Shown here: positions 3,029 to 30,018 of the stretch, piece by piece
Position numbering within the stretch: the stretch's first letter is position 1
Layout of the letters: each line of letters opens with the position of its first letter
From: Polyangiaceae bacterium
GTDB lineage: Bacteria; Myxococcota_A; Polyangia; Polyangiales; Polyangiaceae
DNA length: 36,358 nucleotides
Assembly: GCA_025353725.1 (NCBI GenBank)
Contig: JANXOF010000091.1
Span: 1-36,358 of the forward strand
Direction of reading: 5' to 3'
The notes under the pieces: model-generated
Seen by the model: the letters and a program-made list of their open reading frames with translations, nothing else
Databases searched by the model: none
What the model was told of the DNA's origin: nothing
Program-made: the position numbers and the translations under genes

Positions 3029-3100
3029 CACTCTAAGTCGCGGCACCATGCAGGCAGTGCGGGTGCGCGGGCGCGGCCTTTGATAGGCTCGCAAGCGCCG

Positions 3101-5245: not shown

Positions 5246-5246
5246 C

Positions 5247-10672: not shown

Positions 10673-10785
10673 GGCTTCTCTATTCTACACGTGTTCTCGA
10701 GGCTTGCCACGCGCCATCGGACGTCGTCGAAGAAACGGATCGGTTGTGGCCCCGTCCGCGCGCGGTTTCGACTATACCCTGCGGC

Positions 10786-13815: not shown

Positions 13816-15878
13816 CGTCTCGGCTCCTCCAGGTCGACGACGACGAGCCCGCGGCTCGCGAATGCACGCCGGTGCCGGCTGTCCAGCGAGGTGAGATTAT
13901 CGAGAAAGTCGATGACGTACGGAGCGTGCGCTCGCCAAACTTCTTGCTCATCCGCGACCTCCTGCACCCAATAATCTCGACGGTAGTGATAACGAGAATA
14001 TCCGATGCTGACGTAAGCGAGGTAACGAATACCGAGCGACCGGAAGTACGTCTCCACCGCTTCGCTTCCCTGAAAGTACGGAATTCCTGGCTTTGTGCTC
14101 GAGTAGCCAGGCATGTCGAGATTCGAAATTTGATTTCGCGAAAAATCGAAGTGGTACGGCTCATCCAGCAAAACTCCAAGCTTTGCGCCGACGGGTACAG
14201 AGGCTTGCAGCTGCTGATAAAGCGACACTTCGGGCGGATCCGTATCGGGACCTCGCGGGAAGCTTGCGTTGAGCTGCTCGATGTTGCGTAGCGCGCGGGA
14301 GTAGAAGGTGAGAAGCTGGGGGCGAGACTCTGCCCACGTCGCCACCACGCCAACAAACGCCGTCGCAGCGACGAATGCGCAACGCGTGAAGCGCGTATCC
14401 CCGTTCCATTGCGTTGACGTAACGAGGATAACGGCCAGCGGTATCACGACGAGGAAACCGGCTGCGTAGCGACCTAGCGTCGACGAATCGCCCTGCGTAA
14501 GACCGTGTACCAGAGCGACGAAACCTGCCGCCGAGCCGATTAGAAAAGAGTGTGTTGGACGCCTAGAACTCGTGTCCTTTAGAAGGAGTGCGGCAAAGAG
14601 GAATACGCCAAGCAGTTTCACGGGAAGCCCGTCGAGCAGCGTGCCAAGCTCAAGGCCGAGTTCGCGCAGTATCGTCGACGACCCGCTTTGAAATTGCATC
14701 GCGGGATTGGCGGTGCCAGCCATGAGCGGATAGAAAAAAGTTCGATTGGATTGCCATGCCATCACGAACCACGGGCCGAGTGCCGCGAGTGTGAAAAGCG
14801 CAGCGAAGGCGGGTTCGACCCCTTGCGTTCGTGCGCGTGACTTGAGTGAGTCGCGAGAGGTTAGGAACTTCGATACGTACAAGGCGACCACCGTGACTGC
14901 CGAGACCACGATGTAGTTTTGGCGAAGTGTGCATGTTGCAGCCGCGACGCTGGCGAGGGGCAATGCGTTCTGCCACGGCCGTCGCTCGCGTTGGTCGAGC
15001 CAAACTGCCGTTCGAAAGAGTCCGAGAAAGAAAGCGACGCCGGAGTAGTAGCTCGCAGTGTTGATCGACAAATTCGGTAAGGAAAGCAGGAAAAACAGGG
15101 TGCCGAGGGCTACGAACCACGGAACTTTTCGGGCTTTTGAACGATATCCGACGATGAGCAGAGAGATCATGAGCAGGCATATGCTGCGATCAAACGTGTT
15201 TGCCTGGCTTGGTACAGCTCTTAGAGCAACGATCTCGAGGAAGAGTGTTTGACCTCCGAGAGCGGACAATCGGCGTAGGCTGAATGGCTCGATGACAGCA
15301 CCGGTGTCGAGCATTCGCCTCACAAACGACAAATAGGCAATGTCGTCGTCGTAAGGGTTTGTGTGGCTGTCTGCGATTCCCCCGAGGTAGTGGATGGCAA
15401 AGATACATCCGACAATCGCGCTCGCCACGGCGAGCCCGGGTTCGCTAAGGGCCGCGTGAGCGAGCTTTCGTACGCGTAGACTTACCGCTCTTCGCTCCAA
15501 AATAACGGCGCCGATGGCAAGTGCCAAGCCTGCTTCGACGACGACGAATGCAGCCGACCGATTCATCAAGGAAAATGAAGCGAGTAAGCCGCCGCACGCG
15601 CACACGGCAGACGCGCCCCACACCGTCCGCAAACCGAGGTCCACCCGATCCCTCCGGGCCACTGCGAAGCGCATGAGCGAGCCCCAACCCGCGAACGAGA
15701 CGACGACGAGCAGCGACCAAACCGCTGTCTCCCTAAGCGGGTTTCGACTCATCTTCGGAGCGACGTAAACGAACGAGCCTACGATCGCCGCAACCATCGC
15801 TCCAACCGTCGCGTGCCGCGCGACGTCGCGCTTCGGACCGCCGATACGCGTCGAACGGTCCACTCCGGTCAGTTGCAT
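13812..15878 (-). CDS. GT-C-type membrane glycosyltransferase
   Basis: A 688-residue polytopic membrane protein with about twelve helices. After the fourth or fifth helix comes a large outer loop with NPYDDDIAYLSFVRRMLDTG, whose acidic run is the likely catalytic or metal-binding motif of a GT-C fold enzyme. The C-terminal part of about 170 residues lies outside the membrane (ASVPVGAKLGVLLDEPYHFD, GSEAVETYFRSLGIRYLAYV) and is Tyr/Arg-rich near the end. It is the first gene of the three-gene minus operon and overlaps the following lipoprotein by ATGA. The 121 bp before the ADP-heptose operon on the other strand must hold both promoters. Sugar and acceptor are unknown. Confidence 0.72.
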   Translation of the reverse strand: MQLTGVDRSTRIGGPKRDVARHATVGAMVAAIVGSFVYVAPKMSRNPLRETAVWSLLVVVSFAGWGSLMRFAVARRDRVDLGLRTVWGASAVCACGGLLASFSLMNRSAAFVVVEAGLALAIGAVILERRAVSLRVRKLAHAALSEPGLAVASAIVGCIFAIHYLGGIADSHTNPYDDDIAYLSFVRRMLDTGAVIEPFSLRRLSALGGQTLFLEIVALRAVPSQANTFDRSICLLMISLLIVGYRSKARKVPWFVALGTLFFLLSLPNLSINTASYYSGVAFFLGLFRTAVWLDQRERRPWQNALPLASVAAATCTLRQNYIVVSAVTVVALYVSKFLTSRDSLKSRARTQGVEPAFAALFTLAALGPWFVMAWQSNRTFFYPLMAGTANPAMQFQSGSSTILRELGLELGTLLDGLPVKLLGVFLFAALLLKDTSSRRPTHSFLIGSAAGFVALVHGLTQGDSSTLGRYAAGFLVVIPLAVILVTSTQWNGDTRFTRCAFVAATAFVGVVATWAESRPQLLTFYSRALRNIEQLNASFPRGPDTDPPEVSLYQQLQASVPVGAKLGVLLDEPYHFDFSRNQISNLDMPGYSSTKPGIPYFQGSEAVETYFRSLGIRYLAYVSIGYSRYHYRRDYWVQEVADEQEVWRAHAPYVIDFLDNLTSLDSRHRRAFASRGLVVVDLEEPRR

Positions 15879-15999
15879 GGGCGCCTAGCTATCATGCGAT
15901 CGTTTGGGTGTCGACGTTCGCTCCGCCGTCCAGGAGCGCGCGCAGAGCGTTTTGCTCGTTCTTCGTCCTTGCGTCGACGTGCTAGCGTGGGGCTCGTCA

Positions 16000-17094
16000 A
16001 TGATTAGCCTCGATGCAGCATCTTGGATTGCCAGTGGGCTCCGCGACGGCGCCAGACTTCGAGCCACGATGGCGACGGACGAAACGACCGTCGCTGCCAT
16101 CGGGGCGGTCGCCGGCGCGCTGACCGAATGCCTCGGCGCTGGGGGAAAAGTTCTTCTCTTTGGGAACGGCGGGAGCGCCGCGGATGCCCAGCACATATCC
16201 GCCGAGCTCGTGGGTCGATTTACCGTCAACCGCAAGCCGCTGGCGGCTATCGCACTCACGGTCGACACCTCGGCCATTACTGCGATTGCAAACGACTTCG
16301 GATACGATCACGTGTTCGATCGACAGCTCCGCGCGCTTGGTCGGCCGGGCGACGTCGCGTTCGCGATCAGCACCAGCGGGAAATCAGAGAGCATCCTTCG
16401 CGCGGTTCGATCGGCGAGGGAATTGGGCATGAAGGTTGTCGGATTGACCGGCGCGGCGGGTGTCGATTTTGCAACTCTTTGTGACGCAGCAGTCGTCGTT
16501 CCGACCCGCGAGACCGCTCGGATTCAGGAGCTTCACATCGCGGTCGGCCATCTCGTCTGCATGATCGTCGAAGCCGACTTGTGTGGGCTCGCCCCACCCG
16601 TTCGCGCATGCCGACCGGGCTCGAAGGAGTCCACGCTCAACGACCTTTTGCCGCTACGAGAGCTCTATCGTACGCAAGGGCGCACGGTCGTCTGGACGAA
16701 TGGATGTTTCGATATCCTCCATGCTGGGCATGTCGAGAGCCTTACCGCCGCTCGACGGCTTGGTGACATTTTGGTCGTAGGAGTCAACGACGACGCCCAT
16801 GTTCGCCGCGTGAGGGGCCCGAGTCGACCGATTCACAGTCTTTCGCAGCGGGTGGCTGTTCTGAGCGCGCTGGAAGCTGTTGACCACGTGGTGGTGTTTG
16901 CGGAGGCGACTCCGGCAGCCGCGTTGGGCCTACTTAGGCCCGACGTTCACTGCAAAGGAGCGGACTATGCACCACCCCATGGCGCGCCTATTCCCGAGGC
17001 GGAGGTAGTGACTGCTTATGGCGGGCGTATCGAATTCTTGCCGATGGTCGAGGGACTCTCGACGTCTTCGATTGCGTCGCGACTCCGAGGCTAG
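16000..17094 (+). CDS. Fused sedoheptulose-7-phosphate isomerase (GmhA) and heptose-1-phosphate adenylyltransferase (HldC)
   Basis: A 364-residue two-domain enzyme. The N-terminal SIS domain is GmhA: FGNGGSAADAQHISAELVGR carries the zinc ligands and catalytic acid (H65, E69), STSGKSESI is the phosphate site, and IQELHI holds Q176 and H179. It converts sedoheptulose 7-phosphate to D-glycero-D-manno-heptose 7-phosphate. From about residue 220 comes a cytidylyltransferase-fold domain of the HldC/HldE-C type: TNGCFDILHAGH (HxGH at 241-244), CKGADY and GLSTSSI. It adenylates heptose 1-phosphate to ADP-heptose. These activities are the first and last of the four-step route and are normally separate proteins. 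The ATG at 16000 matches the usual GmhA N-terminus; the open frame to 15904 looks non-coding. gmhB starts 3 bp downstream. Confidence 0.92.
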   Translation: MISLDAASWIASGLRDGARLRATMATDETTVAAIGAVAGALTECLGAGGKVLLFGNGGSAADAQHISAELVGRFTVNRKPLAAIALTVDTSAITAIANDFGYDHVFDRQLRALGRPGDVAFAISTSGKSESILRAVRSARELGMKVVGLTGAAGVDFATLCDAAVVVPTRETARIQELHIAVGHLVCMIVEADLCGLAPPVRACRPGSKESTLNDLLPLRELYRTQGRTVVWTNGCFDILHAGHVESLTAARRLGDILVVGVNDDAHVRRVRGPSRPIHSLSQRVAVLSALEAVDHVVVFAEATPAAALGLLRPDVHCKGADYAPPHGAPIPEAEVVTAYGGRIEFLPMVEGLSTSSIASRLRG

Positions 17095-17097
17095 TTC

Positions 17098-17628
17098 ATG
17101 CCTTCCGCTGCAGTCTTTCTCGACCGCGACGGCACCCTCATCGAGGACCCCGGTTACCTCTCCGATGCGAGCCGAGTGCGCCTGATGCCCGGCGCGTTGC
17201 GTGCCCTTCTTGCGTTTCGCAATCGAGGATTATTGCTGGTCGTGGTGAGTAACCAGTCCGGAGTTCCGCGCGGCCTCGTTACGAAGGAGGAGCACGTCGC
17301 CATCGATGCTCGCATGAAGTCGATGTTCGCTGGCGAAGGCGTTCCGCTCGACGGCGCGTATTATTGCTTTCACCTTCCGGACGAGGGGTGCCTATGCCGC
17401 AAGCCGCGCACGGGGATGATCGATAGAGCGGTGCGCGAGTTAGGCATCGAACGTTCAAGCTCTTACATGATTGGCGATAAGCCAAGTGATGTCGAAGCGG
17501 GGCGAGCCGCGGGGTGTCGAACGGGCGGGCTGGGCAGTGCATTCTCTGCGCCCCTCGCTAGGCCTCAGCCGGATTACAGTGGCGAGAGCTGGCTGGATCT
17601 TCTTAAATGCATGGAGTCCGAGTGGTAG
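17098..17628 (+). CDS. gmhB: D-glycero-D-manno-heptose 1,7-bisphosphate 7-phosphatase
   Basis: A 176-residue HAD-family phosphatase. It has motif I FLDRDGTL (nucleophile D9, general acid D11), motif II VSNQSG, the CRKP lysine and motif IV GDKPSDVEAG. The zinc loop typical of GmhB is present (CFHLPDEGCLCRKP). It removes the 7-phosphate of heptose 1,7-bisphosphate, between the kinase and adenylyltransferase steps encoded next to it. Length is normal for the family. It starts 3 bp after the GmhA-HldC gene and its end overlaps the open frame of the kinase gene, as expected of one operon. Confidence 0.92.
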   Translation: MPSAAVFLDRDGTLIEDPGYLSDASRVRLMPGALRALLAFRNRGLLLVVVSNQSGVPRGLVTKEEHVAIDARMKSMFAGEGVPLDGAYYCFHLPDEGCLCRKPRTGMIDRAVRELGIERSSSYMIGDKPSDVEAGRAAGCRTGGLGSAFSAPLARPQPDYSGESWLDLLKCMESEW

Positions 17629-17654
17629 CGCTGAGCTCACGGAAAGTTGAATCG

Positions 17655-18611
17655 ATGGTTGCTTCCTTCCGCGACAAGCATGTCGTGGTGGTTGGCGACG
17701 TGATGCTCGACGAATACATGCGCGGCGAGGTTTCGCGCGTGTCGCCTGAAGCGCCCGTTCCGATTGTTGACCTCACAGAGCGGCGTTTCATGCCCGGGGG
17801 GGCCGCGAACGCGGTGGCGAACGTCGTAAGTCTCGGTGGCAAGGCCACGCTCGTCGGTGTTGTCGGCGGCGACGCGCAGGCGGACCAGCTTCGGGCCGCT
17901 ATGATAGCGGGAGGAGTCGGCGTTGACGGTCTCGTAGCTTCTCTGCAAAGGCCTACCACACACAAGCTTCGGATCGTGGCGCGCACCCAACAGATCGTTC
18001 GCGTCGACGTCGAGTCGCGTCATCCGCTCGAGAGGGAGTGCGAGGCACTCGTGATTGCACGCGTCGAAGCTTTGGCGTCCAGCGCGCACGCCCTCGTCAT
18101 AAGCGATTACGCGAAAGGCGTAGTCACCCTGGCGGTGATACGAGAATGCCTCGAGGCGTCGCGAAGACACGGTATCCCGCTGATCGTTGACCCGAAAAGT
18201 CGTGACTTTACCCGGTACGCAGGCGCCACGATTCTGACACCGAACGTGCTCGAATTCGAAGTCGCGACCGGCAAATCTACGCGCAATGAAAGCGTGGCGA
18301 TCGTTGCGGCGGGGAATGACTTACTTTCGAGCCTGAACGGAGCGTCAGTTCTTGTGACGCGAGGCGCCGCAGGCATGACGTTGCTCTCGAGCGGCCGCGC
18401 TCCATTGCACCTTCCGACGGTCGCACGATCGGTCTTTGATGTGACCGGCGCGGGCGACACGGTCGTGGGGGCGTTGAGCCTCGCGCTTGCCGCGAAAACG
18501 GAGATGTACGAGGCGCTCGTTGTAGCCACTCATGCGGCGAGTATCGCCGTCAGTCGCGCGGGAACCGTCGCCGTCACTAGTGAAGAGTTGTGCGCGTCTC
18601 TAAGATCCTGA
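17655..18611 (+). CDS. hldA: D-glycero-beta-D-manno-heptose-7-phosphate kinase
   Basis: A 318-residue PfkB/ribokinase-type kinase matching the N-terminal half of HldE: VVVVGDVMLDEYMRG at the start, PEAPVPIVDL, RFMPGGAANAVANVVSLGG, SDYAKGVV, VDPKSRDF and the catalytic FDVTGAGDTVVGA (D268). It phosphorylates heptose 7-phosphate at C1, supplying GmhB. The frame is open from 17607 within gmhB, but the ATG at 17655 has GGAAAG 8 nt upstream and gives the usual family N-terminus, so I chose it. With the fused adenylyltransferase upstream, the operon covers all steps to ADP-D-glycero-D-manno-heptose. No HldD epimerase is present here. Confidence 0.9.
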   Translation: MVASFRDKHVVVVGDVMLDEYMRGEVSRVSPEAPVPIVDLTERRFMPGGAANAVANVVSLGGKATLVGVVGGDAQADQLRAAMIAGGVGVDGLVASLQRPTTHKLRIVARTQQIVRVDVESRHPLERECEALVIARVEALASSAHALVISDYAKGVVTLAVIRECLEASRRHGIPLIVDPKSRDFTRYAGATILTPNVLEFEVATGKSTRNESVAIVAAGNDLLSSLNGASVLVTRGAAGMTLLSSGRAPLHLPTVARSVFDVTGAGDTVVGALSLALAAKTEMYEALVVATHAASIAVSRAGTVAVTSEELCASLRS

Positions 18612-18653: not shown

Positions 18654-19478
18654 TCACGCGCGGTCGAAGATAGCCACCCCGCAGTGCGGGTCCTCGCTGA
18701 TGATCGTAGTTCGCCGGAAGCCACGAACATTCAAGAGGCTCTCGACCTCACTGAGTGAGGTCACCCACTTGTGCCACTCGAGCACGAGTCGATCGGTGAG
18801 CTCCAGGAGCTCAACCGAGTTGCGGATGAGGTCACACTCGAAACCCTCGACGTCGACTTTGAGTAGGTCGATTCGGCGACCTCCGGAAATCTTGACCCAT
18901 TCTGCCGCGACGTCGATGGCCGGAACGGTCACAGCCTTGCTGTCGCCTTTGGCCGGTACGTCCGGATTCAGCGCAGGCTGAGCCGACGAAGCAACGTTGG
19001 AGGGATTTACGAAGAATGTCGCAGTCGCGACGCCAGGTGGATACCCAGCGACGCCGGTGAGCACTCTTGTACCGCTCAGGCCATTTTGGGAGACATGCCA
19101 CGATACTTCTGACGTACAGGCGGCGTTCGCGTCCACGGCGAGTCCGACGAGGTCTCGACGACCCGTACAGTCGGCAGCGTACAACGTGAAATACCCGACA
19201 TTCGCTCCCAAATCGACGAACGTCCGAACAGTCTTGTTCTCGAAAGCCTCTCGGTAGATTTCACGCGAGAAGATTTCGTCCGCCATCAACAGGCTCTCGA
19301 GGTGGCGCACCCGGTATTCGCACCCAGAGCGCTTTAGCTTGCGTCGCAGCGGCACGAGTCCAAGCGCACCCTTCGCCACTTCCTGCAATCGCAGTGTGCG
19401 GATGGCCCGGTGCACAACGGGCATCCCGGCGAGCTTCGTGATGATGGTGGGTTTCGCAGACTTCGGTACGCCGAGCAT
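18654..19478 (-). CDS. FkbM family methyltransferase
   Basis: A 274-residue SAM-dependent methyltransferase. It has motif I FVDLGANVGYFTLYAAD, an acidic residue at the end of the second strand (AVDANAAC) and the FkbM signature IDLLKVDVEGFECDLI, followed by LVLEWHKW. FkbM proteins O-methylate sugars or polyketides, and in a locus like this the target is probably a sugar of the surface glycan. It converges with hldA, 42 bp from that gene's stop. The N-terminal 60 residues are basic and not typical of the catalytic core. No signal peptide is seen, so it acts in the cytoplasm. Confidence 0.85.
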   Translation of the reverse strand: MLGVPKSAKPTIITKLAGMPVVHRAIRTLRLQEVAKGALGLVPLRRKLKRSGCEYRVRHLESLLMADEIFSREIYREAFENKTVRTFVDLGANVGYFTLYAADCTGRRDLVGLAVDANAACTSEVSWHVSQNGLSGTRVLTGVAGYPPGVATATFFVNPSNVASSAQPALNPDVPAKGDSKAVTVPAIDVAAEWVKISGGRRIDLLKVDVEGFECDLIRNSVELLELTDRLVLEWHKWVTSLSEVESLLNVRGFRRTTIISEDPHCGVAIFDRA

Positions 19479-19698: not shown

Positions 19699-20440
19699 TC
19701 ACGGGACGAAATTCGCGTCTGGAGGACGTGTCTTTATTCGATATGCAAGACAATAAGGGCCATCATGGAGTTGGCACTCTCGGTTGCATGCCTTCGTAAA
19801 CTCGAAGTCGTCAACGACGAGCACATCGCGCTCTTCCGTCCCCATCTCTATGAGCTTCGCGCAGTATTTGTCGACTTTCGCGCCCGGAATGGTTTCGAGC
19901 ACGGTGTTGCTTAGGTGAGTGCCGTAAACGGGCAGCACAACTCCTTTCTCTTGCACGATAATCAGAAGAGCCCTCAAATCCGGCCATGCGTCGATCGCTC
20001 CAGGTCCGTGGATAAAAAACGGGCTTGCCATAACGTTCAGCCGCGGTCCGATGCCTGTTGCGCTTAGCATGCTCAGCTCGAGTTCCGGCCTCAAACGGTG
20101 CGCGAAGAGAACGAGCAGCAAGGGCAGAAACGCGAACCGGCCGAGCCTCGAAACAGACAGCTCCGCCATCCCAACGCCGACGATGAGAATCACCGCAACG
20201 AGGAGCGTCGACGCCCACCGAGGGTGGCAAAAGTCGCGCGAGAGCAGTGAGAGTCGTGCGAGCATCCCAATCAGTGGCCAGGAGCGACGCTGCAGGCTGC
20301 GAAGGCACGGCACTGCCACGAGAATGGCAACCCAGAATACGAAACCGACACCGAGATTTCGCGAGTCGTAAAAACCGACCGGCGGCCACATCGGCGACCA
20401 GAGCCATCCGCGCACGAACGCAGCGAGTACTACTGCAGGC
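19699..20440 (-). pseudogene. C-terminal fragment of a membrane glycosyltransferase-like protein
   Basis: The last roughly 245 codons of this frame look like real coding sequence: a Trp/Pro-rich outer loop (WSPMWPPVGFYDSRNLGVGF), three or four membrane helices (VFWVAILVAVPCL, TLLVAVILIVGVGM, FAFLPLLLVLFAHRL), then a cytoplasmic or periplasmic tail with VLPVYGTHLSNTVLETIPGA and ERDVLVVDDFEFTKACN. Such tails are seen in large GT-C-type polysaccharide enzymes. No N-terminal half is present: beyond about 20440 the frame turns into Arg/Thr-rich noise and meets the IS701-like remnant. It is probably a truncated gene. A possible partner is the N-terminal fragment at 28137-28520. Confidence 0.6.
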
Positions 20441-20577
20441 TCTACGGCCGCGGTCGTTGCTCGGCCGGAATCCAATGTCGTTTGTTTCCCACTTTGTGGG
20501 GTCCATCGACGAGGCTCCGCGAATCGGCTCTTTCCATCGAGGTCGGCCGCGTGCAGTGTGCACGCGTGGAGTTCACG

Positions 20578-21238
20578 ATGGACGCCGGGGGAGTCGGCAG
20601 GCTTACGGCTTACTTCGAGGCTATCGGTCACCATCTCCCGCGAAGCGAGTCGCGCGAGTCTTTGGCGGCCTATGGTTCCGGGCTCTTGAGCGACGGAGAA
20701 CGGAAGAGCGTTGAACCTGTCGCTTCCCGCTCGTGGGGCGACCCCCGTGAAGCGCAACGTGCCCACGATCGCCTGCCTCACTTCGTGGCGCAGAGCCGTT
20801 GGTCCGACCGTGCCGTGCGTACCGTCGCGGCTCGGCATGCGATCGCCGCAATGGAGCGCCGCGAGTTCGTCACGACTTGGCTCATCGACGACACCGGCTT
20901 CCTCGAGCACAGCTCGCATTCGGTCTGTGTGCAGCGGCAGTACAACGGCTACGCGGGCAAGGTTGCGAACTGCCAGACTTCGGTGAGCTTGTGCGTCGCG
21001 AACCGAGTACGTGCCGATCGACTTCGAGCTCTATCTACTTGAATCCTGGCACGGCTCGCCGGCCCGGCGAAAGGAGGTGCGCATTCCAACGGCGACGACG
21101 TTTAAGACTAAGCCAGAGCTGACGCTCGACTTCATCGCGCGGGCAAACGCCATCGCACTCGCAGGCCTTCACGAGTCGGTCTACCTCGCGCTATGCAAAC
21201 GAAGGCGCCGAACGCTGCCGAAGTCATCGAGGACGTGA
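20578..21238 (+). pseudogene. IS701-family transposase, frameshifted and truncated
   Basis: From the ATG at 20578 the frame matches the N-terminal half of IS701-type DDE transposases: LTAYFEAIGHHLPRSESRES, GLLSDGERKSVEPVASR, AHDRLPHFVAQSRWSDRAVR, TTWLIDDTGFLEHSSHSVCV (first catalytic Asp region) and QRQYNGYAGKVANCQTSVSL. Near 21003 one extra base shifts the frame; the match continues at once in another frame as EYVPIDFELYLLESWHGSPA and FKTKPELTLDFI. The C-terminal half, with the remaining catalytic residues, is absent after about 21180. It is therefore a dead remnant. It lies between the truncated membrane-protein gene and the ACP gene. No terminal inverted repeats could be made out. Confidence 0.85.
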
Positions 21239-21458
21239 AGCAGCCTGAACTCGTGCACCGGGCTCGCGCGCAGCGGGAATGTGCGCCGCAGCCGAAGACC
21301 AGAAGAGGTCTGTCGCCAGAACTTTTACCAACTGCTTAAAAGAATTCGCGAAATTTCGTAACTCGCCAGCACACGCGAGCTCGGTGCGGACCACTGAGAC
21401 GCTCTTCACTCATCCCACGCAGGCGCGCGCCAGTACGTTCGTTTGCCCGCGCGACGCG

Positions 21459-21698
21459 TCAGCCTCCGCGTTTCTTCATGACGAGAGCGATGAGCTCGCC
21501 CACGTTTTTCAAAGCGACTACGTCGCGCGTGGTGAGCTTGATTTTGAAGTGCTTCTCTACCGCGACGACGAGATCGATGTTGGTGAGCGAATCCCACCCT
21601 TCGACGTCTTTCGCCGTCATCTCGTCCCGAAGCGAAAGGGCCGTGTCATCGAAGACGTCACGAAACACGGTGGTAAGCTCTTCGCGAACGTTGCTCAT
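21459..21698 (-). CDS. Acyl carrier protein of the FkbH cassette
   Basis: A 79-residue four-helix acyl carrier protein with the phosphopantetheine site GWDSLTNIDLVVAVE (Ser37), acidic early helices and LKNVGELIALV near the end. The ATG at 21698 is preceded by GGAG, 8 nt away, and overlaps the stop of the FkbH gene by 4 bp (ATGA), so the two are translated together in a fixed ratio. By precedent (FkbH with its carrier protein in ansamitocin and FK520 pathways) it should carry a glyceryl or related three-carbon unit made from a glycolytic intermediate. In this setting it would play the part DltC plays in D-alanylation. Confidence 0.9.
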   Translation of the reverse strand: MSNVREELTTVFRDVFDDTALSLRDEMTAKDVEGWDSLTNIDLVVAVEKHFKIKLTTRDVVALKNVGELIALVMKKRGG

Positions 21699-23518
21699 GA
21701 GGGTGTCTCCGTAATCAAAGTCTTTTTCGGCTCGTAGCTCGCCACGTCCATGGCCCACCAAGTGCTGTCGTGAGTAAGGCTTTTTTCGCCGCCTTCGATC
21801 TGGGTAAAGCGGTACTTCGAATAGAAGTCTTTCACCATCGCGTTCTTCGCGCTCGGCACATATTCGCCGACGACACGGCTCGCTCCTAGCGCCTTCGCAT
21901 TCGCGAGGACGTGATTCATGACGTGCTGTTCCACACCCCGGGAGAGGACCCTACAGCTCATGAGCCACATGGGTAGCATCGCGTCCGAGCCTTCCACCTG
22001 CATCACGACGACGGAGATCAGGCCATAATCACCGAACCGGTCTATAAGCTTTACGTAGAGCGGGACGGTGCCCGGCCCCGCATTCATCAGCCGCTCGCAT
22101 TCCTCCAGGCCCCATCGGCGGGTAGTTAGATTGAACTGGTTGCTTCGCTGGATCAGCTGGGCGATGCGCGGCAGGTGGAACGAGTCGAACGTGCCCATGG
22201 TGATCTGCATCTCGAGCGAGCGAAGATACTCGTCGACGTTCGCAAACGATCGCTCGAGGAGCTTTCGCTTCGCCTCCTCTTGATAGAGAGCTGTACGCTT
22301 TCCGTCCTCCGCGGTGAGGGTGGTGGTCTCGAACAAGTTGAGCTCCGAAATCGCGCGCACGTAGTCGGAGGCGTCTTCCGGGAGCTCGGGGACGACGACC
22401 TCCGGCAGGTACTGCCGAACCATGTTCCGCTCAAACGGATTGTCGTCAAGGAACGCGATGGAGTCGAAGCCAATATTCAAGACCTCCTTGATCGCCTTGA
22501 TGCCCTCGACCTTCGGCTCCCAATTTACCATGAACACCGCAATGTCTTCCTCACGCAACACCATCTCCGGATGCTCGCGGAAAGCGCGAATGGCGACTTC
22601 GTGCGTATTTTTGCTGGCCACGCAGAGAATCACGCCACGGCGCTTCATCTCGCGAAGAAACAGCTGCAACCGGTAGAACGGCTCGCCGTCGCCGAATGGC
22701 CCGATCTGGATGCCATCAAGGCCGTCATCGCCGATGATGCCGCCCCAGAGGGTGTTATCGAGGTCGAGAATGAGGCACTTAATGCCGCGACCGCGCGTCG
22801 AGAGCACGACATCGACCGCATTCTGGACCACACGGGGAAGGTGTTGTGGTGTGCAAAGCGCTTTCGCGAGTGTCCAGAGCCGCTCTTCGCACCAGGTAGC
22901 GCGGCCAACGTGCGAAGCGATGCTATCGATGTCATCAATCAGCACGTTCGTGCCGCGCGCGAGCTCGGCGAGCTTTCCGTTGAGGTGGTGAACCTGCGCG
23001 TAAAAGGAACTCGGCACCTTCCAATCGAAATTGCCAAACTGCCGCTCGTACGGCATCGCGTAGTTGCCCTGAACGACCTGCGCCTTGGTACGCGCCGCGA
23101 TAGCCCTCCAAGCGCTCTCGAAGCGCGCGGCAATGAAATCTCCGAAGTCGATGCGCCCTTCCGCTTCTTGAAAGTACTTATACCGCAGTGAGTTTGTCGA
23201 CGGAACGATCAGCACGACGTCGGCCTCGAACGCGTAGAGGCCCGACGTCGGGTTCAGAGTCTCGAGCTCCACGGTGTCGTACTCGGCCTCGTAGATCTTC
23301 GCGTCAAAGCCGCTCCGCGCGAACAGCACTCGGAGAATCTCGCAATACTTTTGCGACGCGAACTCAGCGAGCACGGCGACCTTGATTGTCTCCCTACGCG
23401 TTGCAACACCCGCCGAATCAGGGGAAAGCGCGAGAGGGACAGCGAGGGAGAGAGCGAGACGGCGGTGCTCCTTGACGAGAGCGAGGTAGTCCAAGTGCGA
23501 AGAGTCAGCCGTAAACAC
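21695..23518 (-). CDS. FkbH-like HAD-IIIC glyceryl transferase/phosphatase with GNAT domain
   Basis: A 607-residue protein. Residues about 1-240 form the usual N-terminal region of long FkbH proteins, probably a degenerate SGNH-type fold. The HAD-IIIC core holds CLILDLDNTLWGGIIGDDG (D252, D254), LCVASKNTHEVA and FLDDNPFERNMVRQYLPEV. The C-terminal part from about 450 is a GNAT-like domain (QLIQRSNQFNLTTRRW, DRFGDYGLISVVV, MSCRVLSRGVEQHVMNHVLA). Characterised FkbH enzymes take 1,3-bisphosphoglycerate, remove the phosphate and load D-glyceryl onto a carrier protein. The ACP gene overlaps its stop. The GTG at 23518 is the furthest start; it lies 56 bp from the divergent MBOAT gene. Confidence 0.9.
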   Translation of the reverse strand: MFTADSSHLDYLALVKEHRRLALSLAVPLALSPDSAGVATRRETIKVAVLAEFASQKYCEILRVLFARSGFDAKIYEAEYDTVELETLNPTSGLYAFEADVVLIVPSTNSLRYKYFQEAEGRIDFGDFIAARFESAWRAIAARTKAQVVQGNYAMPYERQFGNFDWKVPSSFYAQVHHLNGKLAELARGTNVLIDDIDSIASHVGRATWCEERLWTLAKALCTPQHLPRVVQNAVDVVLSTRGRGIKCLILDLDNTLWGGIIGDDGLDGIQIGPFGDGEPFYRLQLFLREMKRRGVILCVASKNTHEVAIRAFREHPEMVLREEDIAVFMVNWEPKVEGIKAIKEVLNIGFDSIAFLDDNPFERNMVRQYLPEVVVPELPEDASDYVRAISELNLFETTTLTAEDGKRTALYQEEAKRKLLERSFANVDEYLRSLEMQITMGTFDSFHLPRIAQLIQRSNQFNLTTRRWGLEECERLMNAGPGTVPLYVKLIDRFGDYGLISVVVMQVEGSDAMLPMWLMSCRVLSRGVEQHVMNHVLANAKALGASRVVGEYVPSAKNAMVKDFYSKYRFTQIEGGEKSLTHDSTWWAMDVASYEPKKTLITETPS

Positions 23519-23574
23519 GGGCCTTGGTAGCGCGGGTCGACCAGTTCCGCAAGGCGTGATAGCACCCGCTCGGC

Positions 23575-24966
23575 GTGTCGTTTACATCGGTCTCCTTTTA
23601 CGGCTGGCTACTTGCGGCCGTCGTCTTTTACCGTGTCCTTCCGCCGCGGCTGCGCCCACTTACGCTCGTCGTGCTGTCGGCGACCTACTGCGTAGCGGCC
23701 TCGCCTGCCGCGCTCGCCTGGCTCGCTGTCGTGACCGGAATCGCGTGGGGGGCGGGGCTGCGGCTCGCCGGTGAAGCTGCGGACGATTCCAAGCGCACAC
23801 GGCTCCTCGGCATCACCCTCGTGTTTCTAGTAGGGCCGCTCGTCGCGTTCAAGGCGGCCGGGGCGCTCTCGGGTTTCGTCATCCCGTTCGGACTCTCGTA
23901 CTACACGTTCAAGCTCGCGAGCTACGTGCTCGAGACGTATTGGGACCCGTCGTACGTCCAGCAAAGTCCCATTGCACTGGCGGCGTACTCGGCTTTTGGC
24001 GCGCAACTCCTCAGCGGTCCGATTCATCGACCCGCGTCGTTCTTCAAGCAGCTCGAGGCGGTGCGTTTGGAGCCCCTCCCGAACGAGCAGTTTGAAAAGG
24101 CGTTTCGTCTCGTCATCTACGGGCTTCTCCTCAAGCTCGTCATCGGCGACCGTCTCGGCTCGTTCACGGCCATCGTCACGAAAAACCCCGAGGTGTATTC
24201 GCGGCCCGTACTCGCCGCGTGTGCCTTCACTTACCTGCCCCAACTCTACGCCGACTTCGCGGGCTACACGAATATCGCTCTCGGAATCGGGCTCTTTTTC
24301 GGCATCGAAGGCCCTCCGAACTTCGACGCGCCGTTCTCCGCCACGAACGTGCAAGACTATTGGCGTCGTTGGCACATGAGCCTGACGAGCTGGCTCGGCG
24401 ACTACGTCTTCACCCCTCTGCGGATGGCGACCCGCGGTTGGGGCAAGATCGGCCTCGTCGTCAGCGTAATCGTCAACATGACGCTCGTGGGTGTCTGGCA
24501 CGGGTTCACACTCTGTTACCTCGTGTTCGGCGTCTTGCAGGGAATCTTCCTTGCGGTGTCGACCCTCTCTCTCAAGCGTCGCGACAAGCTGTTTGGGCGC
24601 CCGAAGTGGCTGCGGCCCGCGCGCGTGGTGATTGGCATTGTCGTCGTGCAGATCCTGCAGGCACTGGGGCAAATCTTCTTTCAGGCGAACACGATTGAGG
24701 GTGCCTGGACGTTTCTCGCAAACCTCATCGGACTCCGTTCCGCCGGCGCCGCGACGTTCAAAGACATTCGCGTCGACGTCGTCGACCCACTCCAGGTTTG
24801 CGCTGCCATCGCGTTTTACGCGGGCCTCGGCATGCCAGGAACGAAGCGCCTACGCGAGCTCGTCGAGCGGCTCATTCCGAACTGGGTTCGCTACGGCATT
24901 GGTCTTTTCATTCTTGCGGCCCTCACCCTCGAAGAAGGCGGAAAGTTCATTTATGGTCAGTTCTGA
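23575..24966 (+). CDS. MBOAT family membrane O-acyltransferase (DltB/AlgI-like)
   Basis: A 463-residue inner-membrane protein with about eleven helices. MBOAT signatures are clear: FGLSYYTFKLASYVLETYW, LSGPIHRP, YADFAGYTNIALGIGLFFGI, YWRRWHMSLTSWLGDYVFTP (His267) and GVWHGFTLCY with the catalytic His309. MBOATs of the DltB/AlgI/PatA group take an acyl group from a carrier inside the cell and pass it across the membrane to a hydroxyl of an extracytoplasmic glycan. With a carrier protein and FkbH just across a 56-bp divergent gap, the donor is probably the acylated ACP rather than acetyl-CoA. The GTG start is the most upstream reasonable one. The next gene overlaps by 14 bp. Confidence 0.93.
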   Translation: MSFTSVSFYGWLLAAVVFYRVLPPRLRPLTLVVLSATYCVAASPAALAWLAVVTGIAWGAGLRLAGEAADDSKRTRLLGITLVFLVGPLVAFKAAGALSGFVIPFGLSYYTFKLASYVLETYWDPSYVQQSPIALAAYSAFGAQLLSGPIHRPASFFKQLEAVRLEPLPNEQFEKAFRLVIYGLLLKLVIGDRLGSFTAIVTKNPEVYSRPVLAACAFTYLPQLYADFAGYTNIALGIGLFFGIEGPPNFDAPFSATNVQDYWRRWHMSLTSWLGDYVFTPLRMATRGWGKIGLVVSVIVNMTLVGVWHGFTLCYLVFGVLQGIFLAVSTLSLKRRDKLFGRPKWLRPARVVIGIVVVQILQALGQIFFQANTIEGAWTFLANLIGLRSAGAATFKDIRVDVVDPLQVCAAIAFYAGLGMPGTKRLRELVERLIPNWVRYGIGLFILAALTLEEGGKFIYGQF

Positions 24967-26077
24967 GCTCGTGCATACGCGCCGGCCGTGGCTGCTTGTG
25001 CTCCTCTCTGGCCTCGTATGCCTCGCTCTCGACGCAAGCATCTTTCGCTCCGGCGCTTATTCAAGAATCCTCTCCACGAAGAGCGTGGCAGGACACTTCG
25101 CGGCCGTGGCACGGTGGCGGCTCGAGACCCCGCTACCGGGAAAGAACGAGGTATTGATTCTCGGTCATTCAAAGATCGAGGCTGCGTTTTCTGAAAAGAT
25201 GTTCGAAGAGCAGAGCGGCGACTCGAACGTAAAAATCCAACTCGCGTCGTCCGGCGGTACGACGGAAAAAATGTGGTTTTACCTTTTGAATCACATTGAT
25301 CCGAACCACAATCGTTATGCCGCTATCGTCCTTCCGATCGACACGTATAAGTCACCGCCCCTCGAAACCGACGCGGAGAACCTGATAGACGTTGCGCAGT
25401 GCCTCGCGCCAATGCTGAGCACTCGCGATTGGATCGATCTCATCGGCTCGTACACCGCGCCTAACGTGCGAGGGCGGGTCATCGTCGGGGCGGTCATGAG
25501 CTCGCACCTGTATGCGTTGGACCTCCAAGATCTCATCCTACACCCCAAAGATCGGCGAGAAGAGCTCGAATGGGCCGACAAGGCCGGTCCCACGTTCCTT
25601 CACGACTGGGACGGCTATGAAGGAGACCTCACCACTCTGGAGCTCGATCGCGAACACGCGAAAATCGTCTACGCGCCCCCTCACCTCGATGCCTTTCGCC
25701 GTGCAGAAGCGGAAGCGCGTCTGCACGCGTTGCCGCGCGAGCACGTCGGCACCTGGACGCAGCGCTACCATGACTTTCGTAAGCACTGGTTCACGCGCAT
25801 TGTGGACCTATATGCGAACCGGAAGACAAAGCTAATCTTCGTGCAGGTGCCGCGCTGGCCGTTCGATATGCCTTTGCTGTTACCCATAGCGGGTGCGCCC
25901 GATATTCGCGACTTTCTTAGGCCGTCGTCGAGCGTTGTGATCGTCGACGCTGACGCATTCACGGACCTGGAGAAGCCCGAATACTTCTTCGATGTCCTCC
26001 ACGTGAACAAGGCTGCGCGGCGCGCGTTCACTACGCGCTTTGGCCAGACTCTTCGTGACGAAGTCGGCTCGCGCTAA
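24953..26077 (+). CDS. Membrane-anchored SGNH/DHHW-like protein, DltD/AlgX-type partner of MBOAT
   Basis: A 374-residue protein with an N-terminal signal anchor (PWLLVLLSGLVCLALDASIF) and a periplasmic domain. EVLILGHSKIEAAFS places a nucleophile-like Ser73 in a GxS motif and FFDVLHVNKAAR provides D347 and H350, together the catalytic set of the SGNH/DHHW group found in DltD, AlgJ/AlgX and PatB. These proteins accept the acyl group from, or work with, their MBOAT partner to complete transfer onto the polymer. The ATG at 24953 lies inside the end of the MBOAT gene (14-bp overlap) after a GGCGGAAAG sequence, implying translational coupling. The frame is open further upstream, but there it is a shadow of the MBOAT gene. 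Confidence 0.85.
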   Translation: MVSSELVHTRRPWLLVLLSGLVCLALDASIFRSGAYSRILSTKSVAGHFAAVARWRLETPLPGKNEVLILGHSKIEAAFSEKMFEEQSGDSNVKIQLASSGGTTEKMWFYLLNHIDPNHNRYAAIVLPIDTYKSPPLETDAENLIDVAQCLAPMLSTRDWIDLIGSYTAPNVRGRVIVGAVMSSHLYALDLQDLILHPKDRREELEWADKAGPTFLHDWDGYEGDLTTLELDREHAKIVYAPPHLDAFRRAEAEARLHALPREHVGTWTQRYHDFRKHWFTRIVDLYANRKTKLIFVQVPRWPFDMPLLLPIAGAPDIRDFLRPSSSVVIVDADAFTDLEKPEYFFDVLHVNKAARRAFTTRFGQTLRDEVGSR

Positions 26078-26201
26078 AACACCGAGCGTGAACCTCGGTC
26101 ACGATTGTTGAGATAAATGGAAATGTGCGGGGCAGGTGTCTGGTTCGGGAATCGCTAAACCACCGAATCGAGGGACTCCGCGCTTGAACATCATACCGCG
26201 A

Positions 26202-27287
26202 ATGAACCGGCTGATGCGACGCGAGTTGATGCGGCATCGTTGGCGGACGGGCGACCCCGCAAGGGCGATGCGATTCCTTGCCGTTGCGCGACTTGGGCTC
26301 GGGCACAGCAGCGTGCGGGTGGCGAACGGTCTGGACGTCGCCAGGTCCACCGTCGTGCGGACCGCGACGCGGTTTGCGACGGACGGGCGCATTGGGCTGT
26401 TCGGCCCGCGTCGACATAATGAAGAGGCGAAGGTCGACGAACGGTTTCGTCGCCGCGTCGTGCAGATGCTCCGGCGAACGCCGCAGGACTTCGGCTGGAT
26501 GCGGCCGACCTGGACGCGTGAGCTGCTCGGCCTGCAGATGCATCACGACCGATACGTCGCGGTCGCGGCGTGCACGATCGGACGCGTCCTCGCGAAGATC
26601 GGCGCACGTCTCGGAATGGCGAAGGCGGTCGTGCTCAGCCCATGGCCGCGCTACGAACGCTCGCGCGTTTTGGCTCAGGTCCGGCGCCTCGAAGGTCGAG
26701 CTGACGCCGCGGAGCCCGTGCTGTACGGCGACGAGGTCGACATCCACCTGAACCCGAAGATCGGCCGGGACTGGATGTTGCGCGGCCAGCAGCGGCGCGT
26801 CGTGACGCCGGGCAAGAACAAGAAGTTCTACCTCGCGGGTGCGCCCAACGTACGCTCCGGCCGTCTCCACACGACCGGCGCGGACCGCAAGAATGCCTCC
26901 TTGTTTTGCTACTTTCTCCGGCTGATCGCCTCGAAGTATCGCGCGGTCCGGCGCGTACACGTCGTGCTCGACAACTACGGCGTCCATCGCGCCAAGCTCA
27001 CGAAGCGGACGCTCGCCGTGCTCGGCGACCGCATCCGGCTGCACTTCCTGACGCCGTATTGCCCCGACGCGAACCGCATCGAGCGTGTTTGGCAGGAACT
27101 ACACGCGAACATAACGCGAAACCATCGCTGCAAAATACTCCAGCAACTACTGACGAACTTCCGTCACTTCGTCGTATCCCCTGCACGGAGACACGTTCTC
27201 GACGTGGGGCCAGTGACGGCCGAGACTCGCGAGCGTGGAAGTTGGCTTAGCCCGGCGCAGGCTGTTCTTCCGTGGGCGGCACCGTGA
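26202..27287 (+). CDS. IS630-family transposase
   Basis: About 361 residues. The N-terminal helix-turn-helix (LAVARLGLGHSSVRVANGLD, VARSTVVRTATRFATDG) is followed by a DDE domain with all three acidic positions: VLYGDEVDIHLNP, HVVLDNYGVHRAK and YCPDANRIERVWQELH. The catalytic core looks intact, so the protein may be active. The C-terminal 45 residues after NHRCKILQQLLTNF have no family resemblance and read into the IS66 remnant on the other strand, suggesting the natural end was replaced. The ATG at 26202 was chosen; a GTG at 26136 is possible. I could not find convincing terminal inverted repeats or a TA target duplication. Confidence 0.88.
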   Translation: MNRLMRRELMRHRWRTGDPARAMRFLAVARLGLGHSSVRVANGLDVARSTVVRTATRFATDGRIGLFGPRRHNEEAKVDERFRRRVVQMLRRTPQDFGWMRPTWTRELLGLQMHHDRYVAVAACTIGRVLAKIGARLGMAKAVVLSPWPRYERSRVLAQVRRLEGRADAAEPVLYGDEVDIHLNPKIGRDWMLRGQQRRVVTPGKNKKFYLAGAPNVRSGRLHTTGADRKNASLFCYFLRLIASKYRAVRRVHVVLDNYGVHRAKLTKRTLAVLGDRIRLHFLTPYCPDANRIERVWQELHANITRNHRCKILQQLLTNFRHFVVSPARRHVLDVGPVTAETRERGSWLSPAQAVLPWAAP

Positions 27288-28520: not shown

Positions 28521-28762
28521 AGGCCCTGGCGCAGGGTGCTTACACCACCTTGGAAACTGTAGCTATGAATCGCCGATAATTGCGCATCGACCCTGTAGTC
28601 GTGTTGCATGTCGCAGCCGGCGGAATAGCTGCCGACCCGGAGGCGGCGGATTTGGCTTGTCGTGGCTGACGCCCCCATCTTCCCTTTCGCTGAGGCTGAA
28701 TCGTTTGAACCCCTGAACGTTGCCGTCTGAGAAGGGGTACGAACCCCGCTAAACATCTTCAC
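28517..28762 (-). CDS. Hypothetical 81-residue ORF coupled to its neighbours
   Basis: An open frame from GTG at 28762 whose start overlaps the GT9 stop by 4 bp and whose stop overlaps the next ATG by 4 bp, the pattern of a translationally coupled operon member. The product is Ser/Gly/Arg-rich (KMFSGVRTPSQTATFRGSND, IRRLRVGSYSAGC) with no signal peptide, membrane helix or known motif, and its composition is not typical of a folded protein. It may be intergenic sequence that happens to be open. Without it, 238 bp between the two neighbours would be non-coding. Confidence 0.25.
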   Translation of the reverse strand: MKMFSGVRTPSQTATFRGSNDSASAKGKMGASATTSQIRRLRVGSYSAGCDMQHDYRVDAQLSAIHSYSFQGGVSTLRQGL

Positions 28763-30018
28763 GGCGTTTCTACCGTCTTGCCCAGGTGCGCGCTCGCGCT
28801 CCTGCGTTCGGAGAGCATCGCACGCACCTCGGCGAGTACCTGTTCTACAGGTACAGACTGCGCGATGCGATTCTCGACCGCCTCGACGTTCTTCCCCTGC
28901 ACCACGTCTTTGCCGTTGTAGACCGAGAAAATAGGCATGGAGTACAATGGCGGCGCGATTACGCGTGCGCGTGCGGTGAGCGGCGCGAAAAGGGTTGGCG
29001 TGTCCGCGAAGAAAAGTCCCAAGACGGAGGCGTCAACCAAGCACGCAAGGTGCATCGGGCCGCTGTCGTTCGTGACAACAAGGTCCGCCTGTTCGAAGAG
29101 CGCGAGAAGCTGGCGAAGCGAAAGGTCACCGGCAAGCGAGGTTGCGCGCGTGCTCCCGATGCAGTCGACGATGCGCTCGACATAAGCCTTTTCTGCTTTT
29201 GCACCAATGACCGCAATGAAAGCCGTTGGATTTTCGGCGAGGATTGCCACCGCGAGTTCCGCGTAGCGTGCCTCGGGCCACTTTCGAACTTCGGGCGCGA
29301 GGTCCGGTGATGTATTCGGGTTAAGAACCACAAGCGTGCTTTCGCCTCCACCACGCTTCGCCAGAAGGGCGCGTACAAAATCTCGCGCGCCAGCGTCGAC
29401 CACGACGCGAGGGTACTGGTACCGCTGGCGAAACTCCTCGAATTCGAGATAGTAAATGTCTCGCGTTTTCATCAGGTAGACGAGGGAAAGGAAAATGTCC
29501 TTCGTGTGAAAGTAATGATTATAAGTGCCCGGGATGTCGAGGAGGCTTCGGCGCCACGGCTCGGGTGTTAGGCAGAAACCTGCGAAGCGCGGAATTTTCG
29601 CCAGACTACCAAGTACGAGCGGAAATTTAGCGAAGAACTCAAGGTCAATGAGGAGATCGATCCCCGTGGCGTGTAGCCCTCGTGCCGTCTGCAGAGTAGA
29701 CTTTACGAAGGCGGCCGGGGATGAGTTATCGATGTACCAGCCGTGGTCGGAGACCCCGAGAATCTCGAGAATCTCTTTGTTCGATTTGAACGTGATGAAG
29801 TTGATCTCGGCTTCTGGGTAGGCCTCACGGAGCGCCGCCACCGCGGGCGAGGCGACGACCAGCGAGCCTATGCCGAAGAATTTCGCGACGGCGATCTTCC
29901 GGATCGGAGCGTCTGCGTCGGCACGCGGAAGTCCGAACCGCTTCGCCACGGCGAGGATTGAGCAAGCCAGGTTGCCGACCTGGCTATCGAGACGGCGCAT
30001 CAGCTTTACGTCGAACAT
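28759..30018 (-). CDS. Glycosyltransferase family 9 (ADP-heptose:LPS heptosyltransferase-like)
   Basis: A 419-residue GT-B enzyme of the WaaC/WaaF/WaaQ type. The N-terminal domain contains IRKIAVAKFFGIGSLVVASP and AVAALREAYPEAEINFITFK. The C-terminal donor-binding domain contains LVVLNPNTSPDLAPEVRKWP, AVIGAKAEKAYV, SLAGDLSLRQLLALFEQADL and VVTNDSGPMHLACL, a canonical GT9 signature. It should transfer a heptose, or a similar sugar, from ADP-heptose in the cytoplasm, which fits the ADP-heptose operon about 10 kb away. An N-terminal stretch of about 40 residues precedes the first family motif. It lies 111 bp after the large GT-C gene on the same strand and may share its transcript. Confidence 0.9.
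   Translation of the reverse strand: MFDVKLMRRLDSQVGNLACSILAVAKRFGLPRADADAPIRKIAVAKFFGIGSLVVASPAVAALREAYPEAEINFITFKSNKEILEILGVSDHGWYIDNSSPAAFVKSTLQTARGLHATGIDLLIDLEFFAKFPLVLGSLAKIPRFAGFCLTPEPWRRSLLDIPGTYNHYFHTKDIFLSLVYLMKTRDIYYLEFEEFRQRYQYPRVVVDAGARDFVRALLAKRGGGESTLVVLNPNTSPDLAPEVRKWPEARYAELAVAILAENPTAFIAVIGAKAEKAYVERIVDCIGSTRATSLAGDLSLRQLLALFEQADLVVTNDSGPMHLACLVDASVLGLFFADTPTLFAPLTARARVIAPPLYSMPIFSVYNGKDVVQGKNVEAVENRIAQSVPVEQVLAEVRAMLSERRSASAHLGKTVETP

Follow-up and report, generated by a model that had tools for sequence, protein, structure and literature searches.

A recurrent FkbH-ACP-MBOAT-SGNH gene cassette in a Polyangiaceae bacterium, proposed to be a Dlt-like envelope-acylation system with FkbH as its loader

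The DNA analysed here (the window) is a stretch of 36,358 nucleotides that makes up an entire contig (JANXOF010000091.1; G000:C22 in our numbering) of the 6.6-Mb, 98-contig genome of a Polyangiaceae bacterium (GCA_025353725.1). It holds a cassette of four adjacent genes, for an acyl carrier protein (ACP), an FkbH protein, a membrane-bound O-acyltransferase (MBOAT) and a putative SGNH-type protein, arranged as two divergent pairs with the following features.

21459-21698, minus strand: ACP, 79 amino acids (PF00550), with Ser37 (21588-21590) within GWDSL as the phosphopantetheine site
21695-23518, minus strand: FkbH, 607 amino acids, with an FkbH_N domain, a HAD-IIIC domain and a C-terminal part bearing an SCR motif (Cys522) (TIGR01686, PF21211)
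23519-23574, no strand: divergent intergenic region of 56 bp between the FkbH and MBOAT genes, read from the sequence
23575-24966, plus strand: MBOAT, 463 amino acids (PF03062), with His267 (WRRWH) and His309 (GVWHG)
24946-24963, plus strand: C-terminal hexapeptide of the MBOAT, FIYGQF, an FxYxxF acyl-shuttle motif with Tyr460
24953-26077, plus strand: SGNH-type acyltransferase- or esterase-like protein, 374 amino acids, with an N-terminal hydrophobic stretch, Ser73 (25169-25171), Asp347 (25991-25993) and His350 (26000-26002)

The FkbH and ACP genes overlap by the letters ATGA, and the SGNH gene starts within the MBOAT gene, overlapping it by 14 bp. Start codons are putative (ATG for the ACP and SGNH genes, GTG for FkbH and MBOAT), and no sigma-70-type promoter-like match was found in 21300-26300. 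A preliminary description of this DNA had proposed the gene places, both overlaps and the 56-bp divergent gap, all of which were borne out when the coordinates were checked in the sequence; the residues that it singled out (FkbH D252 and D254, ACP Ser37, MBOAT His267 and His309, and Ser73, D347 and H350 of the SGNH protein) each lie where it had put them.

The window FkbH matches TIGR01686 with 284 bits (cut-off 146.65) and PF21211 (FkbH_N) with 93.7 bits (cut-off 27), carries D252 and D254 within DLDNTLWGG and is the sole TIGR01686 match in its own genome. D252, D254, S302, K336, D358 and D359 are invariant in 42/42 aligned FkbHs, as are S521-C522-R523 in the 41 that have letters there. According to the available text of PMC7489565, FkbH transfers the glyceryl group of 1,3-bisphosphoglycerate to an ACP, and the known FkbH-ACP pairs serve polyketides. 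By analogy, the window FkbH would be a glyceryl loader drawing on 1,3-bisphosphoglycerate. The window ACP matches PF00550 with 29.5 bits (cut-off 20.8), and its closest solved relative is 2LML (E = 7e-17), which we take to be GmACP3 of Geobacter metallireducens, an organism that the structure search did not name; the title of the GmACP3 paper, as carried by reference lists, reportedly speaks of a putative role in lipopolysaccharide (LPS) biosynthesis. For the MBOAT (PF03062, 83.3 bits, cut-off 27), the top match among solved structures is DltB (6BUG, E = 3.5e-30) and the sole NCBIfam match is the DltB model TIGR04091, at 177.5 bits under the cut-off of 375. The protein terminates exactly in FIYGQF, a case of FxYxxF that had gone unnoticed in the preliminary description. 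In the Dlt system, as set out in the available text of PMC12148441, DltB transfers D-alanine from DltC to the FxYxxF tyrosine of the microprotein DltX, from which it passes to a serine of DltD, and PatA-type MBOATs hold the FxYxxF acyl-shuttle motif within their own C-terminus. Ending as it does in FIYGQF, the window MBOAT thus carries the tyrosine that the shuttle mechanism requires.

The gene set recurs elsewhere. FkbH_N matches are present in 22 of 377 genomes of the phylum, 19 of them over the curated cut-off, and two of the three under it have an MBOAT. In 13 of the 22 genomes, or 12/21 without the window's genome, FkbH has an MBOAT (called by our own profile, E <= 1e-8) no more than about 9 kb away. 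The background density of MBOATs (105 matches in 447 Mb from 58 genomes, the window's own included) gives about 0.005 expected per stretch, so that 12 of 21 loci correspond to a binomial P of about 1e-23; this value is rough, since the density comes from a single-protein query and the loci from an iterated profile and since the genomes are related, and a several-fold higher MBOAT density leaves the conclusion of linkage unchanged. With the window FkbH as query, the same 58 genomes yielded six other full-length stand-alone FkbHs, four of them with an MBOAT within 4 kb, and a scan of genome contigs with a single FkbH sequence gave one locus only. Among 72,556 plasmid records, 120 hold an FkbH relative, and cassettes of ACP, FkbH, MBOAT and a further protein occur on pSymB of Sinorhizobium meliloti, in Rhodobacteraceae strain SC52 and on Tistrella pTM1. 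The 18 FkbH-MBOAT cassettes considered here are those in genomes (15, window included) and on plasmids (3); in loci L060, L069, L070, L082, L085 and L086, among others, MBOAT, FkbH and ACP stand in a same-strand row. Twenty control MBOATs (three from the window's own genome), which are the best matches to the window MBOAT plus further own-genome ones rather than a random draw, lack both FkbH and that ACP out to about 5 kb or to the contig end. The preliminary description had held that a failure of the four genes to co-occur would count against it; the cassette is found again in other families and on plasmids of Alphaproteobacteria.

The cassettes also share their carrier and much of their ancestry. 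An ACP of the window type, recognised by our own profile, is present in 18/18 of them. In a tree of 41 of the 46 FkbH matches (left out are one row of fewer than 200 residues and the four matches that make up the two-piece FkbHs of L068 and L084), the MBOAT-linked FkbHs (18/18) fall in one clade of 25 (support 100/99), apart from the polyketide-type FkbHs. The closest relative of the window cassette lies in a genome from another family of the phylum (G311, locus L069), where ACP, MBOAT, SGNH and FkbH genes, and then a MaoC-SDR fusion, follow one another on one strand. Identities between the two are 48% for FkbH, 52% for the ACP and 38% for the MBOAT, with no significant BLAST match between the SGNH proteins, and window and L069 are sisters in both the FkbH tree (100/100) and the MBOAT tree (100/97). 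In the MBOAT tree, which omits L068 as the same locus as L062 from another S. meliloti strain and in which several short cassette MBOATs are long-branched, cassette and control labels change twice (shuffled mean about 13, 0/500 as low). A ranking that had placed the window MBOAT nearest to the relatives' ordinary MBOATs was rejected, as it lacked G311 and L069 scores higher. The four genes belong together.

Two side observations concern FkbH relatives in plasmid and phage records. Over 12 kb, one gap is all that separates the pSymB records of S. meliloti 1021 and 2011 (L068 at 13206-15268, against L115); the 2011 record has an open FkbH frame and the 1021 record a split one, a difference that is either real or a sequencing error. 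An unannotated phage record from human faeces (MT835480.1, 'Bacteriophage sp.') encodes an FkbH relative at 71476-73140 that covers 92% of the query at 37% identity.

The shuttle tyrosine takes two forms across the cassettes. Ten of the 18 cassette MBOATs are at least 463 amino acids long and have FxYxxF at their end (fused shuttle), and the other eight, of 388-416 amino acids, have no terminal FxYxxF. Of these eight, the L019 MBOAT is truncated at a contig end and that of L018 borders on one, so the downstream assessment covers the remaining six cassettes. All six have a one-helix open reading frame (ORF) of about 36-64 amino acids (some lengths counted stop to stop) that ends in [FV]xYxxF and lies beside the MBOAT or the SGNH gene; the first position, at which V was allowed for F, is F in L075, L076 and L082 and V in L017, L071 and L083 (3/6). 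Judged by sequence, these ORFs are putative DltX-like small proteins and the short MBOATs appear DltB-like. In 907 kb of cassette and control loci, read on both strands, the only ORF ends with the motif beyond the MBOATs and these six are three, namely an H+-pyrophosphatase ORF and two small ORFs that resemble DUF5989 proteins. The latter are one-helix ORFs at 9373 (minus strand) of L081 and 18957 (minus strand) of L086, with 55 and 68 codons and the ends FIYALF and FFYAVF; L081 showed no MBOAT, and the MBOAT of L086 lies 11 kb from its small ORF, which a GDS-motif ORF adjoins. Both may be unrecognised acyl-shuttle microproteins. Holding both fused and separate shuttle tyrosines, this one set of cassettes connects the mechanism's PatA form with its Dlt form.

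Assignment of the fourth protein to the SGNH type draws on motifs and profile matches, which are weak but consistent. A partner of 340-416 amino acids with GxS and a C-terminal Asp/Asn-x-x-His is adjacent in 14 of 17 assessable cassettes, a count that carries our judgement, as partners were chosen by adjacency and by eye (GxS, [DN]xxH). Ser73 is aligned in 14/14 partners and His350 in at least 90% of the 14. Against solved structures, a profile of the 14 found SGNH-type hydrolases first (7C23, E = 9.5e-5; acyl-CoA thioesterase I, 0.007; AlgX, 4KNC, 0.046). Compared by hhalign with the partners from the 13 other cassettes, the window protein scored 86.8% (E = 4.2e-6, 76 columns, GxS block aligned), against 0.1% for a control of one protein; it gave no NCBIfam match with an E-value of 0.1 or lower.

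By family tests the cassette is not Dlt, but its sequence features support a machine that would be Dlt-like in working, with FkbH as the loader. It shares with Dlt (DltABCDX) a carrier protein, an MBOAT, an acyl-tyrosine shuttle motif and an SGNH-type partner, and the six cassettes with a short MBOAT share the separate DltX-like ORF as well. It differs in that FkbH replaces the ligase DltA (none of the 24 window proteins scanned has an AMP-binding match), that the DltC model PRK05087 gives 14.9 bits against a cut-off of 68, that the DltB model stays under its cut-off and no DltD family match is found, and that the window shuttle is fused to the MBOAT, a separate DltX-like ORF being present in 6/16 assessable cassettes. 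This central claim of the preliminary description, Dlt-like envelope acylation with FkbH as loader, survived on recurrence, the common ACP type, co-inheritance, the shuttle motif and the DltX-like ORFs. The window also bears the marks of the bacterial MBOAT-SGNH class: the MBOAT His pair, the C-terminal FxYxxF and, by motif, an adjacent SGNH protein with Ser and Asp-x-x-His. PatA-PatB likewise combines an MBOAT ending in FxYxxF with an adjacent SGNH protein, whereas the donor in the window is proposed to be acyl-ACP rather than acetyl-CoA and the carrier and loader genes are adjacent. AlgI-AlgX is another MBOAT-SGNH pair with C-terminal FxYxxF. In the available text of PMC12148441, Dlt takes D-alanine from a carrier protein, and the other MBOAT-SGNH pathways have no carrier and are fed by acyl-CoA. 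The polyketide FkbH-ACP pairs (methoxymalonyl-ACP, the tetronate glycerate operon) resemble the window in combining FkbH with a stand-alone ACP, but no polyketide synthase or dehydrogenase set adjoins the window FkbH, which belongs to the MBOAT-linked clade; in respect of the methoxymalonyl-ACP set (FkbG-FkbK), which includes two dehydrogenases and an O-methyltransferase, no dehydrogenase stands beside the cassette, the nearest SDR being at 10453-11535.

We consider it probable that the four genes form one MBOAT-SGNH envelope-acylation machine, fed by ACP and not by acyl-CoA. FkbH would move the glyceryl of 1,3-bisphosphoglycerate to the phosphopantetheine on ACP Ser37 as a thioester, and a conserved His of the MBOAT (probably His309, by analogy with DltB) would take this acyl group off the ACP and place it on Tyr460 within FIYGQF. 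On the outer face of the inner membrane, the acyl-tyrosine would hand the group to Ser73 of the SGNH protein, which would then esterify a glycan of the surface or periplasm, the likeliest candidate being the LPS-like, heptose-containing one whose genes lie in the flanks. The chemistry of the first three steps is that of characterised families, set upon a gene order, motifs, family matches, recurrence and co-inheritance that are seen directly; the glyceryl group and the glycan are what we infer.

Several observations weigh against this mechanism. At 9/22 FkbH_N loci (G005, G366, G272, G068, G220, G181, G393, G232 and G211), some of them at contig ends, the retrieved stretch shows no MBOAT, and of ten plasmid FkbH loci retrieved from the 120 records just three have one. 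The remaining seven FkbHs of the clade of 25 also have no MBOAT in the stretch fetched, one of them having WcbI, and as the clade is separate from the polyketide-type FkbHs, a glyceryl substrate for the MBOAT-linked ones is carried over by family. The C-terminal motif is found in 16/20 control MBOATs, and in near form in the other four, so it marks the MBOAT-SGNH class and not feeding by FkbH. No adjacent SGNH gene is present in 3/17 assessable cassettes (L080, L085 and L086; L019 is cut), the window SGNH gene finds no match in 57 other related genomes, and a single-sequence structure model of its product is poor (mean predicted local distance difference test score 33.9). Nor does any Pfam family, DltD and DHHW included, match the window protein even with E allowed up to 5, so that the earlier label 'DltD/DHHW-like' stands for the mechanism class and falls for the family. 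Finally, among 100 proteins neighbouring the cassettes (surveyed from 160 neighbour ORFs), the largest groups are SDRs (9) and methyltransferases (7), and the 25 most frequent families include no glycosyltransferases.

The surroundings of the cassette in the window bear on the acceptor and include the following features.

15904-18611, plus strand: heptose genes, comprising a GmhA + HldE-C fusion, a GmhB-like gene and HldE-N (TIGR02198 HldE-N, 356 bits, cut-off 345)
20482 to about 21042-21238, plus strand: IS701 transposase remnant (NF033540, 118.9 bits, under the cut-off of 150)
26136-27287, plus strand: IS630 transposase directly beyond the cassette (NF033545, 175 bits, cut-off 100)
28759-30018, minus strand: GT9 heptosyltransferase-like glycosyltransferase (PF01075, 81 bits, over the cut-off; heptosyltransferase equivalog models under cut-off)

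Among equivalog models, those of GmhA, HldE-C and GmhB rank first for their genes, at scores under their cut-offs. Heptose genes and a GT9 protein in the flanks favour an LPS-like glycan as the acceptor, and a heptose-containing glycan of this kind would be the most likely one. Such a link with polysaccharide genes is uneven across the cassettes. The preliminary description had named co-occurrence with polysaccharide loci as a check, and it holds at the window (heptose genes), in S. meliloti and in strain SC52; that cassettes generally lie within such loci was rejected, as the neighbour-family counts do not show it. Elsewhere in the window, an ORF without family match (19699-20919, minus strand), possibly a truncated gene, overlaps the IS701 remnant, and in each of two adjacent proteins (911-5245, plus strand) a protein kinase domain is joined with an FGE-sulfatase domain.

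With regard to the acyl group, no acyl-tailoring enzyme directly adjoins the window cassette; an FkbM-family methyltransferase lies at 18654-19478, 2 kb from the ACP gene. When the MaoC-SDR fusion of L069 was compared with the window's own genome, the SDR half alone matched and the MaoC half found nothing at E up to 0.001, and MaoC-SDR tailoring in this genome was rejected on that account. Since no tailoring gene is adjacent and only SDR-half matches occur in the genome, the simplest reading is that the window product would be a plain glyceryl ester. Other cassettes hold further enzymes: an S-adenosylmethionine (SAM) methyltransferase in L022, L063, L082, L083, L085 and L086 (by clustering, annotation or Pfam), MaoC and/or SDR in L019, L069, L070 and L080, and a Glyoxalase_4-type VOC protein in L022, L060 and L062. 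These genes suggest that several of the other cassettes probably deliver tailored three-carbon acyl groups. Chemistry on the carrier could comprise dehydration to pyruvyl and reduction to lactyl, methylation to O-methylglyceryl, and epimerization by the VOC protein to L-glyceryl. In L017, an ORF at 4963-6627 (plus strand) directly after the ACP resembles, by eye, a B12-binding radical SAM protein and is possibly another acyl-tailoring enzyme.

A rival account, which we regard as unlikely, makes the MBOAT and SGNH proteins an ordinary acetyl-CoA acetyltransferase like PatA-PatB, with the FkbH-ACP pair serving an unlinked pathway. PatA uses acetyl-CoA (available text of PMC12148441), the window pairs are divergent and not a single operon, most MBOATs of related genomes lie apart from any FkbH, and the 20 controls do without FkbH and ACP while 16 of them end in the same FxYxxF. 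Against these points stand the recurrent linkage, at the P value given above, the ACP in every cassette, the same-strand rows of MBOAT with FkbH and ACP and the clustering of cassette MBOATs apart from the controls. We give similarly little credence to the view that the machine works as described but yields an ester other than glycerate, either because this FkbH clade loads another acid or because an enzyme encoded elsewhere converts glyceryl-ACP. The separation of the MBOAT-linked clade from polyketide-type FkbHs would fit this, as would the MaoC/SDR, methyltransferase or VOC genes of other cassettes (the L069 fusion stands beside FkbH) and the FkbM-family methyltransferase near the window ACP; the HAD-motif residues and the SCR motif are, however, invariant in both kinds of FkbH, and the L069 fusion matches the window's genome only in its SDR half.

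Two further explanations seem very improbable. A cassette for a small secondary metabolite, whose glyceryl or methoxymalonyl units come from FkbH and ACP and which the MBOAT acylates, would agree with the polyketide role of known FkbH-ACP pairs (PMC7489565, available text) and with suomilide-type peptide clusters, where an FkbH domain and an MBOAT occur together and act on a natural product, the suomilide MBOAT being deduced to acylate the glycosylated peptide (available text of PMC10143770). Yet no polyketide synthase or peptide synthetase domain was found among the 24 window proteins scanned, and the SGNH partner and shuttle tyrosine point to transfer across the membrane. Nor do we put much trust in the cassette being a decaying passenger between insertion sequences, without present function: it does lie between the IS701 remnant and the IS630 transposase, and an FkbH match, at 37% identity or less, turns up in just 4 of 11 further genomes from its genus, but the four frames are open, the catalytic residues intact and the tight overlaps kept.

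Beside the preferred ACP-fed envelope acylation, a plasmid of Sulfitobacter pontiacus (L111, 5426-9092) has a row of an AMP-binding-ACP fusion, an SGNH-like protein (by eye) and a short MBOAT near glycosyltransferases. Its ACP domain is related to the window type (35% identity), and its SGNH-like protein and MBOAT are also shared with the window, but its loader is of the AMP-binding kind; it is the same chassis with a different loader. More tentatively, and with less confidence than we have in the four-gene machine itself, the whole set could be a modular, glycolysis-fed form of envelope acylation: FkbH would load the ACP, an optional methyltransferase, MaoC + SDR or VOC protein would remodel the acyl group, a fused or separate shuttle would carry it and the SGNH protein would transfer it, an AMP-binding loader being the alternative at the first step. 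Such a system would be a candidate route to glycerate and lactate esters of polysaccharides, for example the L-glycerate of gellan. O-methylglycerate is known on bacterial exopolysaccharides. Glyceryl and lactyl groups also occur on them, with L-glycerate in gellan given by a cited title (PMC4432689, available text), and the literature found, as far as its available text goes, names no donor for these groups. No paper tying FkbH to an MBOAT-SGNH envelope pathway was among the matches listed, which largely excluded subscription literature and are not proof of novelty.

If the proposed mechanism is true, a loader that taps 1,3-bisphosphoglycerate would be a new type of donor for envelope acylation and would couple surface chemistry to glycolytic flux. 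The cassettes, among them that on pSymB of the laboratory plant symbiont S. meliloti, make the question of the donor for exopolysaccharide glyceryl and lactyl groups testable.

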